Source: Lentibacillus sp. JNUCC-1
GTDB lineage: Bacteria > Bacillota > Bacilli > Bacillales > Amphibacillaceae
Assembly (NCBI RefSeq): GCF_009741735.1
Contig: NZ_WHOH01000001.1
Coordinates: forward strand, 1,550,001 to 1,614,000
Length of the DNA: 64,000 bases
Reading direction: 5' to 3'
The first letter of the stretch is position 1; the number at the start of each line of letters is the position of its first letter. This document shows positions 2,663 through 54,659 of this stretch, in pieces. Position numbers and translations under genes: made by a program. The notes under the pieces were generated by a model that had not been told where the DNA came from, made no database searches, and saw only the letters and a program-made list of their open reading frames with translations.

Positions 2663-3957
2663 ATGATTGATTGGTTAGAAAATCACTTAATGGAACCACT
2701 CGGAAAAATTGCCCAAAATAAATATTTGCAGGCGATCCGTGATGCATTCGTTATTTTCGCTTTGCCAGTGATTATTACCGGGGCAATATTTTTAATTATA
2801 GCCAATCCGCCAACCTCAATCGATCTGGGGATTATTGATGCATGGGCAAATGCCATTGAGCCGATTCAGGCACAGCTGTTATTCCCGTTTAATTTAACGT
2901 TCGGACTGATGGCGCTGACGGTATCGTTTGGTGTCGGGTATAGTTTGGCCATCCGTGAAGATATGGATGCGGTGATGGCCGGTATACTATCCATGCTCGC
3001 TTTCTTCATGACGACCTTTCCGGTAGTCAACCTTGAAGAAGTGCCGTTTGGCGATATTTTACAATACCTTGGTGGACAAGGGTTGTTTGTGGCAATTATT
3101 TTAGGGATTTTAACAACTGAAGCCATGCGCTTTTTAATTAAGAAAGGTTTTACTTTTGAAATGCCTGCGGGTGTGCCGCCATATGTCATGCGTACATTCC
3201 GGGCGCTCATTCCATTTATGCTGATCTTGCCGGCCGTCTGGCTCATAGCTTGGGCGGTGTGGGCGAACTTCGGCAGGACCATTCCACAAGTTGTACTCGA
3301 TCTGTTCAGCCCGCTCGTTGCTGCGTCCAATTCATACTGGGCAGCACTCGGTATGATCCTGCTGATGCTCATCCTATGGGCAATTGGTATCCATGGCATG
3401 AACGTCGTATCGTCTGTGGCCTATCCGTTTTGGATGACACAGCTCGCTGAGAACGCTGACGCTGTTAAAGCGGGATCTGAAGCAACCGGTATCGTGACCG
3501 AGCCATTCTTCCATATGTTCACACATATCGGGGTTCTGGTGCCACGCTTGGACTCGTGATTTTTATGCTGTTCTCCGCTTCGGTTCAACTGAAGCAAGTT
3601 GGAAAAACAGCCATTGTTCCGTCCCTGTTCAATATTAATGAACCTGTCATTTTCGGTTTGCCAATCGTATTGAACCCGATTTTGATTATTCCATTCGTTC
3701 TTGGTCCAACCATTATCGTGACCATTAACTATTTCTTATTTGCAACCGGCATCCTGCCACCGGTTATTTTGCAGCCGCCGTTTACTGTCCCTATTTTCCT
3801 TGGCGGATTCATTGCAACAGGCGGATCTGTCCTTGCCGGTCTGGTCCAGATTATGAATGCCGTGATTGCAGCCGTCATTTACTGGCCATTCTTCAAGAGA
3901 TATGAAAAAGAATTGACAGAACAAGAACAGGCAGAAGCAGAACCAGCACAAAGCTAG
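2663..3957 (+). pseudogene. licC: PTS lactose/cellobiose-type EIIC permease, one-base frameshift
   Basis: Two overlapping frames (2663-3559 and 3556-3957) together encode a full EIIC of about 431 residues with many membrane helices, including the family segments IHGMNVVSSV, TEPFFHMFTHIG and NINEPVIFGLPIVLNP. At about 3529-3532 the sequence reads ATCGGGGTTCTGG. One additional G gives HIGGSGATLGLVIFML, exactly as expected across the junction. The gene is therefore either frameshifted by one G or miscalled in a G run. The surrounding IIB and IIA genes are intact, which argues for a sequencing error. The total length (1295 bases) is one short of a multiple of three. Confidence 0.85.
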
Positions 3958-3969
3958 GAGTGATCAACC

Positions 3970-4308
3970 ATGAATTATGAAGAAATTATGACACAGTTAA
4001 TCCTTCATGGCGGCAACGCACGCGGTTTGTCGTATGAAGCACTGGACGAGGCAGAAGAATTTAATTTTGACGAAGCTGAAAAACTCATGGATGAAGCCAA
4101 TGATGAGTTTCTTGAAGCACACAAGCATCAGACGGCACTCATTCAGAACCAAGACGAAGATGCGGCACCAAGCTTTGTCATGATTCACGCGCAAGACCAT
4201 GTGATGACCGCACAAGCAGAAATGCAGCTGATTAAACGCATGATCGAACATCTTAGAACGACTGAGAAAATCGAAAAGCGTCTGGAAGCACTTGAACAAA
4301 ACAGCTGA
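3970..4308 (+). CDS. licA: PTS lactose/cellobiose-type EIIA component
   Basis: The 112-residue all-helical EIIA has the pattern MIHAQDHVMTA with the phosphorylatable histidine, and an acidic helical N-terminal half. It accepts phosphate from HPr and passes it to EIIB. It begins 12 bases after the EIIC stop with a GGAGTG ribosome site. It is the last gene of the transport operon, since a hairpin terminator follows at 4334. The B-C-A order is that of several Bacillus lic/cel clusters. Confidence 0.88.
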   Translation: MNYEEIMTQLILHGGNARGLSYEALDEAEEFNFDEAEKLMDEANDEFLEAHKHQTALIQNQDEDAAPSFVMIHAQDHVMTAQAEMQLIKRMIEHLRTTEKIEKRLEALEQNS

Positions 4309-4333
4309 GTGACAAGCAGATGACGGGAAAAGT

Positions 4334-7575: not shown

Positions 7576-8060
7576 ACAAACTGCGAACCAGAGAAAACTT
7601 TAAATGACTGGTTCTGGCAACCGCTCGGGGAAAACACTCCGCGTCCAGTGGGCGCTGCTGAGCCTCCTCGGTCTATCGACCTCCGGGGTCTCACCGAGGC
7701 TTTTCCTCCCACAGGAGTCTCCGTGTTTTCCCCGAGCTGGGTGAGAAGTGTTCACCTTCCTTCCCGCTTTCGTGGGCAGAACAGATGAAAGTTTGAATTG
7801 CGTATAGACATTGATAATAGCCGGTAAACTGAAGTCATTCATACTTGGTTTCGGGCAGAAGCGTCCAAGCCACTGAATTACATAGAGTGATTGGAGCGGA
7901 GGGAAGTCGACTCCTGCGGGAACAGCACGAGTCCGAAGACCCCACAGCGGTGGTCTTTCCGCGAGGAGGCTGAGGCCGTGCCCGCGGAAAGCGACTTCCC
8001 GCAGCATAAATCACGATCCTCTCATAAAATTATAGTGGATCTAATTAGTTCGCAGTTTAC
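7576..8060. repeat. Palindromic interspersed element, copy 1
   Basis: The ends are ACAAACTGCGAAC (7576-7588) and GTTCGCAGTTTAC (8048-8060), inverted terminal repeats matching at 11 of 13 positions. Inside are two imperfectly palindromic GC-rich modules. One is around 7625-7735, with CTCCTCGGTCTATCGACC and GGAGTCTCC. The other is around 7896-8005, with GACTCCTGCGGGA and CCCGCGGAAAGCGA. No intact gene is present, and the ORFs of up to 135 codons here are by-products of the palindromes. Similarity to copy 2 continues about 45 bases beyond the right end. It resembles the non-coding palindromic repeats widespread in Bacillaceae. The 7540-8132 gap holds nothing else recognisable. Confidence 0.8.
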
Positions 8061-17062: not shown

Positions 17063-17105
17063 CACTGGAACAAAGGGCGATAACCGCCCTTTGTTCCAGT
17101 GTTTT
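17063..17105 (+). terminator. Strong terminator after the MerR gene
   Basis: CACTGGAACAAAGGGCG pairs perfectly with CGCCCTTTGTTCCAGTG around a five-base loop and is followed by TTTT. Confidence 0.92.
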
Positions 17106-17400
17106 AGCATACTTCTATAACACAGTTGACACAAACTGCGAACTAATGAAAACTTGAATGACTGCATCTGGAAACTAACCACATTGAGAGTATCGTGATT
17201 TGCGCTCCGGGAAGTCGCTTTCCGCGGGCACGGCCTCAGCCTCCTTGCCCCGGCAAGGGGTATGTCGACGTTGCCCGCAAAGGGCGGTTTTAGTCGACCA
17301 TCCTTAATGTAACGCTGTGGGGTCTTCGGACTCGTGCTGTTCCCGCAGTCAACCATGTATCGCAAAAAACGCTATACACCACAAGGGGATGAAAATAGAT

Positions 17401-17575
17401 GTAGGGTGGCGATACTAGTGCTACGGCTGGATGAGGAAGGTCGATACTCCTTGGTGCCTTAGAGCCCTACCCGCAGTCTGACTCCTTCGACCACGGCGCA
17501 TCACTTATTGTTGCTCCCTTTCGGGAAGCACTCATGGTAGATTAACCCTATTCTGGTTGTTGCGCCAGCCTTAAA
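17401..17575 (+). ncRNA. Candidate IS110 bridge RNA
   Basis: Bridge RNAs of IS110 elements lie in the non-coding leader and carry paired guides for target and donor. Here CCCGCAG (17470-17476) equals the left target flank up to the core. GACTCCT (17480-17486) is the reverse complement of the right flank AGGAGTC. Next, TCATGGTAG (17532-17540) equals the IS right end plus core. TGGTTG (17554-17559) is complementary to CAACCA just inside the left end. The order target-guides then donor-guides fits the known layout. GTAGGG (17401-17406) can pair with CCCTAC (17465-17470), closing a stem. Exact ends and the folding of the target loop are uncertain, since only three bases separate the two target guides. 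Confidence 0.6.
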
Positions 17576-17606
17576 ATATTTGATGCCGTAGAAAGGATGC
17601 TTTTCA

Positions 17607-18830
17607 ATGGATATACTCATTGAAAGAGCATGCGGTTTGGATGTCCACAAAGACAACATTACTGCATGCATTATCACACCAAAAGGAAAGGAGATTGAAA
17701 CATTTTCAACCAAAACTGTTTATCTGATCGGATTAGTGGATTGGATCAAGGAACACAAATGCACACATGTTGCGATGGAAAGCACGAGTGTCTACTGGAA
17801 ACCAATTGTTAATTTGTTAGAAGCAGAAGATATTGAATTCCTAGTAGTGAATGCGCAACATATTAAAGCTGTTCCAGGAAGAAAAACAGATGTCAAAGAT
17901 GCTGAATGGATTGCTAAGCTTCTTCGTCATGGTTTACTAAAGGCTAGCTTCATTCCAGATCGGAAACAAAGGGAACTACGTGAACTTGTTCGGTATCGTA
18001 GAAGCATCATCGAAGAACGTGCGAGACAACTCAATCGAATTCAGAAAGTCCTAGAAGGCGCTAACATCAAACTAGGTTCTGTTGTTTCTAACATTACAGG
18101 CGTCTCTTCTCTTGATATGCTTCGGTCTATAGCTAATGGCGTTGAAGACCTTGATGTTTTAGCCAATTATGCAAGAGGCGTAATGAAACAGAAAAAAGAA
18201 CAACTAAAACTTGCTCTACAAGGTTATATACAAGATCATCAGCGGTTCATGATAAAGACTATTATAGACCACTATGATTACCTTACTAACACAATAGATA
18301 TGCTTGATGAAGAGATAGCTCAAAGAATGAGTGAATATCAGGAAGATATTGAGCGACTGGATTCAATCCCAGGAATCGCAACAAGAATGGCTGAACAAAT
18401 ACTTGCAGAGCTTGGAACAAATATTAAAAAACAATTTCCTACTGCACCACAAATGTGTTCATGGGCGGGGTTAGTTCCCGGTAATAATGAAAGTGCTGGG
18501 AAACGTAAATCATCTAGAACTAGGAATGGAAATAAATATTTGAAATCTGCATTAATTGAAGCAGCTCATTCACTTCGGGGTTCCAAGACCTATCTCGGAG
18601 CACTCTATCGTCGTACGGCTGCCCGTAAGGGTAGAAAACGAGCAGCAATTGTAGTTGCTCATGCCATTTTACGAATAGCCTACTATCTACTAACTCGTAA
18701 AGAGATGTATGTAGATTTAGGCGAAGATCACTTCGACAAGCAAAGAAAACAATCTATTGTTAACCATTCACTGCGCCGCCTAGAAAGTTTAGGATATACA
18801 GTTGATATTAAGGAACAAGAAGTATCTTAA
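17607..18830 (+). CDS. IS110-family transposase
   Basis: The 407-residue product has an N-terminal RuvC-like DEDD domain (GLDVHKDNITACI with the first Asp; HVAMESTSVYWKP with Glu; GRKTDVKDAEWIAKLLRHG with the Asp pair), a coiled-coil middle (about 180-260) and a C-terminal Transposase_20 domain. That domain has the IPGIATRMAEQILAELG helix-hairpin-helix and the SWAGLVPGNNESAGKRKSS segment that carries the catalytic serine region. It is full length and apparently intact. It acts as a bridge-RNA-guided recombinase on the element's ends. Its codon use is more A/T-rich than that of the flanking genes, consistent with recent arrival. Confidence 0.93.
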   Translation: MDILIERACGLDVHKDNITACIITPKGKEIETFSTKTVYLIGLVDWIKEHKCTHVAMESTSVYWKPIVNLLEAEDIEFLVVNAQHIKAVPGRKTDVKDAEWIAKLLRHGLLKASFIPDRKQRELRELVRYRRSIIEERARQLNRIQKVLEGANIKLGSVVSNITGVSSLDMLRSIANGVEDLDVLANYARGVMKQKKEQLKLALQGYIQDHQRFMIKTIIDHYDYLTNTIDMLDEEIAQRMSEYQEDIERLDSIPGIATRMAEQILAELGTNIKKQFPTAPQMCSWAGLVPGNNESAGKRKSSRTRNGNKYLKSALIEAAHSLRGSKTYLGALYRRTAARKGRKRAAIVVAHAILRIAYYLLTRKEMYVDLGEDHFDKQRKQSIVNHSLRRLESLGYTVDIKEQEVS

Positions 18831-19252
18831 CATCTTACTGATTCTATAGCCATTAGACATTGGCGCTCTCCTACTTTTTTAAAAATGAATGAGCTGCGTC
18901 TACTTTAGTGTTGCCATTTTTAAGTTTTATAGTATTTTTATTTTCATGGTAGGAGTCGACTTCCCTCCGCTCCAATCACTTTATGTTAGTCAGTGTCTTG
19001 AACACCCTGAATACAAAAGTATAGAGGAAGGGGGTACACTCTCATCAAGCTCGAGGGGAACGCGGAGACTCCTGCGGGATACAAAGCCTCGGTGAGACCC
19101 CGGAGGTCGTTAGACCGAGGAGGCTCAGCAGCGCCCGCGGAAAGCGCAGTGTTCCCCCGAGCGACCGCGTGAGGCAGCTATTAGTTAGTTCGCAGTTTAC
19201 GGATACATGTGCTTTAATAAATAGCAAGAATCTGTACGAAAACAGCCGATAT

Positions 19253-19286
19253 AAAAAAAGAGAACCGCACTGGGTGATCTCTTTTT
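19253..19286 (+). terminator. Hairpin with T tract after the palindromic element
   Basis: AAAGAGA and TCTCTTTTT flank a GC-containing loop. It can act on either strand. No clear gene ends here on the plus strand. Confidence 0.5.
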
Positions 19287-19495
19287 CGTCTTTGAGTAAG
19301 CTTCTAATTTAGTTCTATTATTCCTCTTTTAATTCAGACACTAGCGAATCTTGGTTACAAGTACTTGTACTAGAAGTTTTCAATAGGAACATACGATCGA
19401 ATATGGTATACTATATTAACAATAGACTGGCTTCACATGAGGGTTTGCGGCACACGTTCCTTCTGGGGTTTTCCCCATGGAGGGAGGTGATGCAA

Positions 19496-20741: not shown

Positions 20742-20891
20742 CCTTTCTTGCCCTTTCAGAAAATAATAGAAGTTAGTTATGGGAACAAATGTACGAATGT
20801 GATATGCCATAACTACAATAGACTGGCTTCACATGAGGGGTTGCGGCACATGTTCCTTCTGGGGTTTACCCCATGGAGGGAGGTGATGCAA

Positions 20892-20975
20892 ATGATCACG
20901 ACTGATAACATCATGCTGATGATTTCGTTTGGCATGTTAATTGCAGTGGTCATGTCCGCGAATAATAAAAAATAA
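20892..20975 (+). CDS. Holin-like type I toxin peptide, copy 2
   Basis: The peptide is identical to the 27-residue product at 19496-19579, although the DNA differs at several third positions (for example CTG for CTA, TTA for TTG). That suggests purifying selection on the peptide. The same GGAGGGAGG site and the same complementary CACATGAGGG / CCCTCATGTG pair are present. Longer frames starting at 20748 are read-through of the leader and not likely to be used. Confidence 0.8.
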   Translation: MITTDNIMLMISFGMLIAVVMSANNKK

Positions 20976-21107
20976 TCCCTCATGTGCTGTAGCGGCGCCT
21001 TTGAGGGATTACTCTTAAATGTGTGCCCACCCCTCTTGACGGGGTTGGTCTATTGAAACCGTTCCATGTTACCAGCATGGAGCGGTTTTTAATATGGTAT
21101 GTGGTTC
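20976..21107 (-). ncRNA. Candidate antisense antitoxin RNA, copy 2
   Basis: On the minus strand TTTACA (21137-21142) and TATAAT (21115-21120) are 16 bp apart, with a predicted start near 21107. It overlaps the toxin's 3' end as in copy 1. The hairpin AACCGCTCCATGCTGG/ CATGGAACGGTT is slightly longer than in copy 1. Confidence 0.65.
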
Positions 21108-53999: not shown

Positions 54000-54077
54000 T
54001 AAAATGTATCCTCCTATTTTTTACTAACTTTTATTTAGGCTTGAAAGGTAGTTGCTTTTACAGTTCCGATAGTCGGC

Positions 54078-54659
54078 ACAAACTGCGAACGAGAGAACCT
54101 CGCTCATACTCAAGGTGAGAGAATCGTGATTTGCGCTCCGGGAAGTCGCTTTAACTTTATCACAGCTCAAGTGCGACATCTGTTCAAGAAACCCACTTTC
54201 ACAGTGTCTTCTAGCCGCGGGCACGGCCTCAGCCTCCTTGCCCCGGCAAGGGGTATGTCGACGTTGTCCGCAAAGGACGGTTTTAGTCGACCCTCCTTAA
54301 TGTACCGCTATGGGGTCTTCAGACTCGTGCTGTTCCCGCAGGAGTCGACTCCCCTCCGCTCCAATCACTTCATGTTAGTCAGAGCTTGAGCCATACCTCT
54401 CCCAAAAGTTATAAGAAAGGAAGCACTCCTCACCAAGCTCGGGGAAAACACGGAGACTCCTGTGGGATGCAAAGCCTCGGTGAGACCCCGGAGTGCGATA
54501 TAGGGGAAGAAAGGCTAAAACCGCGACGTCCTGTCGCAACCCCTTCATGACCCACATCCTGTGGGCCCGAGGCTCAGCAGCGCCCGCGGAAAGCGCAGTG
54601 TTTACCCCGAGCGACCGCAGGAGGCAGATATAGCGAGCTCAATTACATCGCAGTTTATG
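54078..54659. repeat. Palindromic interspersed element, copy 3, between ectB and ectA
   Basis: The ends are ACAAACTGCGAAC (54078-54090) and TCGCAGTTTATG (54648-54659). Against copy 2 it has two extra pieces at hairpin positions: about 64 bp after GGAAGTCGCTTT (54154-54217), and about 80 bp starting after GACCCCGGAG (54493-54572) with its own stems GCGACGTCCTGTCGC and CCCACATCCTGTGGG. It retains the site CCCGCAG-GAGTCGAC that IS110 used in copy 2. The whole 54000-54702 gap is occupied by this element and short flanks. Confidence 0.82.

Follow-up and report, generated by a model that had tools for sequence, protein, structure and literature searches.

The window, the whole stretch of 64,000 nucleotides of Lentibacillus sp. 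JNUCC-1 that was analysed, contains an intact IS110-family element, and the evidence is very probably explained by a bridge RNA upstream of its transposase gene with a guide frame inverted relative to that gene. As read from the sequence, the guide order in the target loop is right-then-left, opposite to that of IS621 and ISEc21 and like that of the IS1111 group. Comparison among copies and relatives was also the source from which we read the ends, the target, the left guides, the right target guide, the RNA fold and the existence of short copies composed of the RNA and two ends.

Element, ends and target site

The features that define the insertion are the following.

17347..18952, + strand: intact IS110-family element, core AG at 17347-17348 and 18951-18952 (junctions against the empty site; six full copies of 99-100% identity)
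18941..18952, + strand: right end TTTTCATGGTAG of the element (junction reading and copies in the genome)
17137..17346, + strand: left part of the interrupted host repeat (limits by eye)
18953..19203, + strand: right part of the interrupted host repeat (limits by eye)
54335..54346, + strand: empty target site CCCGCAGGAGTC inside the intact host repeat at 54069-54656 (sequence match)
19067..19078, - strand: second empty target site, directly right of the element (12-mer search)
7909..7920, - strand: third empty target site in the window (12-mer search)

The left junction reads TTCCCGC-AG-TCAACCATG and the right junction TTTTCATGGT-AG-GAGTCGACTT. Compared with the empty site, CCCGC-AG-GAGTC, the dinucleotide AG stands at both ends of the element; a fixed target and a shared dinucleotide core without longer duplication are characters of IS110-family insertion. 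An earlier note on this DNA had already placed the ends, the AG core and an empty site near 54.3 kb, and the junction comparison and the empty copy at 54335-54346 agree with it.

The interrupted host sequence is a dispersed Bacillaceae repeat; a target in a dispersed repeat had been proposed in the note. The intact copy showed at least 67 matches in the genome (40 of 213 candidates were scored), and the target 12-mer CCCGCAGGAGTC was found uninterrupted 122 times (65 forward, 57 reverse), against 0 for the reversed control. Two copies of the 12-mer often lie in opposite orientation some 120 bp from each other, as at C1:140417 (+) and C1:140537 (-), and many host repeats thereby provide two sites. 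IS621 targets REP sequences, and the dispersed-repeat target of the present element is parallel to this. The Rfam family Bacillaceae-1 RNA (RF01690) matched the interrupted host repeat at 17247-17309 (-) and the intact copy at 54499-54565 (+), on opposite strands. At 20816-21083 (+) of the window there is also a BsrG match, presumably a type I toxin-antitoxin RNA, with 56.5 bits against a cut-off of 55.

Copies in the same genome

Through searching the assembly (3.69 Mb, 3 contigs), we found six full copies of 99-100% identity and seven short copies of about 399 bp, which keep the leader (97%) and the right end (74-76%) and contain nothing of the transposase. GAGTC follows AG on the right in all 13 insertions. 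CCCGC stands on the left in 11 of the 13, and the other two each have one mismatch (CCCGG in L005, CCCAC in L012); beyond those site bases, L008 deviates from the usual repeat in its right flank and L012 in both flanks. Since all 13 insertions lie at the programmed AG and GAGTC site, no copy occupies an unrelated core, which agrees with the specificity claimed earlier. A stretch of about 38 bp of left end (89%) was detected within a host repeat at C1:1721708-1721745 and is perhaps a remnant of an element.

Transposase and relatives

17607..18830, + strand: transposase/recombinase gene, 407 aa (Pfam PF01548 2.7e-39, PF02371 8.2e-20; NCBIfam NF033542 3e-84)

The protein carries the DEDD_Tnp_IS110 and Transposase_20 domains by which the IS110 family is recognised, and the IS621 chain 8wt6 matched the DEDD/Transposase_20 recombinase at 8.3e-17. 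Residues D12, E58, D95, D98 and S296, which we take to be the catalytic positions, are invariant in 14 rows. In a tree of 33 rows, the clade with IS5075 (support 100/99), a reference we take to be an IS1111 group member, does not include the transposase; IS621 is on a long, weakly placed branch, with only part of its sequence used. The subterminal inverted repeat was 6 bp by eye (ACCATG at 17352-17357 and CATGGT at 18945-18950) and shorter in relatives.

A transposase match at E 1e-30 or better was present in 23 of 150 related genomes, the own genome counted. The scan of one genome per species gave at least 80 named loci; 79 elements were parsed, 63 of them with both flanks, and 55 remained after near-duplicates were removed. 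The common end rule was AG, four or five bases and then a CATG-like word on the left, and a TTTTC..G..AG-like word on the right. As the rule demands AG, elements with other cores are absent from the parsed set. For two groups of 37% identity (G007 and G049) ends could not be assigned. One further locus was a Citrobacter IS110 (32%).

Predicted bridge RNA

17421..17591, + strand: predicted bridge RNA, from CTACGGCTGG to CCGTAG (31-sequence consensus fold and pair counts; extent inferred)
17480..17486, + strand: GACTCCT, stem strand closing the target loop as GGUC/GACU (consensus fold, constancy)
17495..17566, + strand: donor loop with closing helix GGCGCA/TGCGCC (helix 4, paired in 100% of cells)

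The single leader folded no better than its shuffles (z of the energy 0.92; 162 of 200 shuffles did as well or better), so the structure was taken from an alignment of 31 sequences. In this consensus 97.7% of cells are paired and two-sided changes number 24 cells against 5.9 in shuffles; when slid, the structure paired 28-41% of cells, a control that favours a structure derived from the same sequences. The target-loop closure GGUC/GACU is paired in 98.4% of cells. The neighbouring stem tried in its place, GGUCG/CGACC, reached 92.9%; covariation is not decisive between the two. In the Rfam search of 17100-19300 at E up to 1, the only match was the Bacillaceae-1 RNA of the host repeat and the leader gave none; the search of three further loci (L048, L128 and L094) returned only group II intron matches, in L048.

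A bridge RNA or seekRNA is characterised by a conserved fold whose internal loops pair with target and donor; here both target halves and the left donor are accounted for. The domain matches, the guide covariation given below and the consensus fold together bear out the proposal of an IS110 element with a bridge RNA encoded in its leader.

Target guides

17470..17476, + strand: left target guide CCCGCAG, equal to left flank plus core, 3' side of the target loop (covariation, permutation)
17445..17451, + strand: right target guide TACTCCT, 5' side of the target loop (covariation, permutation, nearest-pair test)

When every RNA column was scanned against every flank position, columns 111-119 covaried in the same sense with the left flank (best z 17.9), and columns 87-95 were complementary to the core and right flank (best z 7.5). 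In the set of 55 non-redundant relatives, the left guide agreed with the flank of its own element at 4.62 of 5 bases, where permutation gave 2.39 (z 13.9, 0/5000), and the 5'-side right guide scored 3.67 against 2.79 (z 8.5, 0/5000). Both signals persisted without the GAGTC clade (n=38), with z 12.1 and 0/5000 for the left guide, and 3.42 against 2.75 (z 5.9, 0/5000) for the right one. Since the right guide directly adjoins the hairpin in some clades and lies one base off in others, several registers were allowed in its test, with equal freedom for the permuted pairs.

Relatedness was controlled with 27 disjoint nearest pairs having different targets, of which 23 spoke for the left guide, none against and 4 were ties; the 5'-side right guide had 14 for, 3 against and 10 ties (p 0.0064). 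The right guide is clearest in L127 (right target AG-ACATTCC, guide GGAATGTCT), L131, L111 and L137. Right-guide matches of only 2/5 were seen in five of the 55 rows (L103, L105, L106, L123 and the dimer junction L054+942), and low left-guide matches in L054+2541 (1/5), L138 (2/5), and L123 and L131 (3/5 each).

On the right, TACTCCT of the 5' side of the target loop is complementary to the top strand, AG-GAGT(C), apart from a single distal mismatch; on the left, the 3' side has the top-strand sequence itself. This order was also found by eye in a 43%-identical element with core AA (G057), which has the left guide CTTGAAAA on the 3' side and TTCTTTT on the 5' side, and in an Acidobacteriota element (L164; 5/5 left, 3/5 right).

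Donor guides

17532..17540, + strand: left donor guide TCATGGTAG, equal to right end plus core (covariation z 12.1)
17554..17559, + strand: TGGTTG, in a helix with AACC at 17544-17547 (helix 6, 98.1% paired; one pair CG/UG/UA)

The left donor guide matched the right ends at 0.98 (z 12.1; guide and end belong to the same element), and in relatives guide and right end change together, to CATGGGAG. For the right donor guide, two segments were tried and neither covaried clearly with the left end. TGGTTG gave z 0.4-0.5 at the register proposed in the earlier note, and z 3.5 with 45% match at a shifted register among the relatives; the 5'-side candidate near TGACT gave z 2.8 and 24% match, likewise among the relatives.

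The two left guides named earlier, CCCGCAG and TCATGGTAG, are upheld, following the left flank and the right end of the IS across relatives, and so is the idea that specificity is readable from DNA. The two right guides named there, GACTCCT and TGGTTG, did not hold, and the covarying segment at 17445-17451, across the loop from the left guide, had been overlooked. The possibility that the matches lie inside paired stems proved true of just these two. The earlier note had recognised a real bridge-RNA element with the left half of its code correct, and what it took for the right half are two structural segments.

Alternative readings

In a canonical IS621-like bridge RNA, CCCGCAG and, three bases later, GACTCCT would be the target guides and TGGTTG the right donor guide. 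For this reading speaks the perfect fit of GACTCC to the right target in the GAGTC clade (5/5), where the window's own 5'-side segment has one mismatch (4/5) and GACTCCT none; GACTCC also slightly exceeded permutation in all 55 rows (3.15 against 2.97, z 2.6, 41/5000), and TGGTTG complements CAACCA of the element's left end and reaches z 3.5 when its register is shifted. However, outside the GAGTC clade (n=38) the GACTCC score fell to 2.61 against 2.51 (z 1.2, 795/5000), and the nearest pairs gave 2 for, 4 against and 21 ties. The segment TCTGACTCC is constant in 54 of 72 elements, which include both target classes (72 of 128 contexts were used; 10 were unreadable and the remainder lacked an end or flank). 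GACU is bound in the closing stem with GGUC and TGGTTG in a helix with AACC, and at its own register TGGTTG stays at z 0.4-0.5, so the "unusually close target guides" of the earlier note turn out to be one guide and one structural segment. We take the perfect match of GACTCC in the GAGTC clade to be most likely coincidental, with the palindromic target (GAGTCGACTC) contributing to it, and regard the canonical reading as very unlikely. A second alternative accepts the guides and places the functional RNA on the antisense strand, which would make the order IS621-like. A generic promoter scan is compatible with this, since it showed no excess on either strand (4 found, 3.8 expected), but G-U cells outnumber A-C cells by 22:1 in helices H1, H3, H4 and H5 and by 46:2 in H6, which favours the sense strand for a fold that had itself been chosen for that strand. 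Of 51 elements tallied, 39 also have a TATACT-like hexamer a short way ahead of the sense RNA (hexamers picked by eye). An antisense working RNA therefore seems to us most improbable, and the sense RNA with inverted guide frame is preferred.

Bridge-RNA-only elements

Searching with a covariance model of the RNA gave matches in 11 of 159 genomes at the level of the family and in 54 of 397 at that of the order (the sets overlap), and 128 unique contexts from part of the matched regions were examined. A transposase match lies downstream in 99 contexts and is missing in 29, two of which had under 500 bases available. Among the matches examined, 17 of these 29 are complete elements, 342-399 bp long and spread over 12 genomes. 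Elements of the same sequence were counted once even where they lie at different places, so the seven short copies of the own genome represent four contexts. After duplicates were removed, 11 RNA-only elements could be scored: the left guide fits its flank (4.73 against 3.76, 1/5000) and the right guide fits weakly (3.55 against 3.15, 191/5000).

The left donor guide was readable in 13 of 18 short contexts from eleven other genomes, being TCATGGGAG in 12 and ACATGGTAG in one (L259). For 10 of the 12 contexts with TCATGGGAG the right end was found, and it is CATGGGAG in each. In three genomes (G015, G055 and G195) the full elements examined have CATGGTAG in the guide and also in those right ends that were found, and the short copies end in CATGGGAG. 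As judged from these sequences, the left donor guide and the right end of many RNA-only elements are rewritten together. We infer that both addresses of such an element are specified by its RNA and that a recombinase compatible with it would act in trans.

The short copies may otherwise be dead deletion remnants that were never moved in trans. They have no transposase; in one genome (G068) the RNA model finds a single copy, a short one, and the genome is without transposase match at E 1e-30; and the right end was not found in 10 of the 29 transposase-less contexts, in two for lack of sequence. Against this, the seven short copies of the own genome have both ends complete and lie in seven places, all with the programmed site, differing from one of them (L010) by 0-2 bases, with one copy 1 bp shorter. 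They are not a simple deletion of the IS, as the RNA part is 96.7% and the right end 73.8% alike, and the differing right ends of short and full elements in the three genomes above also speak against remnants. We consider the remnant explanation unlikely and continue with short elements moved in trans.

Possible natural re-addressing

Two elements of Thermoanaerobacter wiegelii (L134 and L135, around 2727-4330) are inserted inside GTTTCAATTCCTTATAG-GTAGGCTAAAAAC, a sequence seen again beside L134, which we take to be the CRISPR repeat of this species. Their left guide CTCATAG and right guide TTACCT each match at 4/5, which suggests RNA-programmed targeting of the repeat. IS110 insertions that split CRISPR arrays were described in 2016 for other Thermoanaerobacter, including one IS110 dimer and a MITE (PMC4852346); they likewise lie within the array repeat, and the portion of that paper available to us gives no guide mechanism, whereas the guides found here offer a reason for such insertions.

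Two other elements (L115, at 246, and L166, at 2728) have the left guide CATGGTAG and look like insertions at the right end of another IS110 of the lineage, one IS being aimed at another. In L054 (942-4142) two tandem copies share one AG core, as if one copy had inserted into the circle junction of the other.

Proposed mechanism and meaning

We propose that the leader, read in the direction of the transposase gene, forms a bridge RNA in which the target loop precedes the donor loop. The 3' strand of the donor loop, TCATGGTAG, would pair with the right end and core, and the recombinase would join a RE-AG-LE circle to CCCGC-AG-GAGTC. The guide frame would run opposite to the transposase gene, with the RNA kept upstream of it, and the same transposase probably moves the 399-bp copies of RNA and ends in trans. 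Transcription, RNA-protein binding, the circle, the order of strand exchange and mobilisation in trans are conjectured here from sequence.

We lean towards a broader view that joins three things: a third IS110 layout with upstream RNA and inverted frame, self-addressed RNA-only elements of about 375-400 bp, and natural re-programming. If true, guide frame and gene direction were uncoupled in IS110 evolution, and natural programming has taken the lineage to dispersed repeats, to CRISPR repeats and to its own relatives' right ends. Since the RNA names target and donor, any recombinase able to recognise the scaffold could serve the RNA-only elements, even if its own ends differ. Such elements also prompt us to ask whether two ends and a bridge RNA suffice as a mobile unit. 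Programmable DNA-editing tools are being built on bridge recombinases from a few IS110 members that share one guide order. Applying the IS621 layout to a new member would yield wrong guide bases, as happened in the earlier note.

Comparison with known systems

IS621 is alike in its left-end RNA upstream of the gene, in the target loop followed by the donor loop and in guides covering the core (PMC11208160; PMC11208158, as far as these texts were available). It is unlike in the target loop: the right guide is 5' and the left guide 3' in the present element, and the core on the gene's strand is AG here and CT in IS621. The order and strand sense that the earlier note had found matching IS621 are accordingly reversed against the available text of PMC11208160. 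When the site is read on the bottom strand, as GACTC-CT-GCGGG, the IS621 layout is restored including the CT core, so the guide frame appears inverted relative to the transposase gene with the RNA still upstream.

In the accessible part of PMC11187229, the ISEc21 seekRNA has the guide order of IS621, with the bottom-strand match first; it shares with our element the upstream non-coding region and guides for both strands, whereas here the top-strand complement comes first. Of the IS110-group characters, the guide-bearing non-coding region upstream of the gene is thus present, and the order of bottom-strand match 5' and top-strand complement 3' is not. IS1111-type elements (ISEc11, ISPa11 and ISKpn4) carry the top-strand complement before the bottom-strand match, as here, with the RNA downstream, although exceptions to the downstream non-coding region are reported in the same part of that source. 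Unlike them, our element has its RNA upstream and a transposase outside the IS5075 clade, with a subterminal repeat of 6 bp and 407 aa against repeats of 7-17 bp and 330-350 aa in that group.

The copies of about 399 bp are MITE-like, being short and transposase-less with complete ends and several copies beside a full-length relative. They differ from MITEs in carrying a structured RNA with target and donor guides, and so would bring their own address rather than only end repeats.

Our literature search, which covered neither bioRxiv nor figures and supplements, found no report of upstream RNA with right-then-left order or of bridge-RNA-only elements; one of the six further RNAs figured by Durrant and co-workers may share the upstream right-then-left layout. 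The upstream RNA, the IS1111-type guide order and a transposase outside the IS1111 clade together form a layout that matches neither group.
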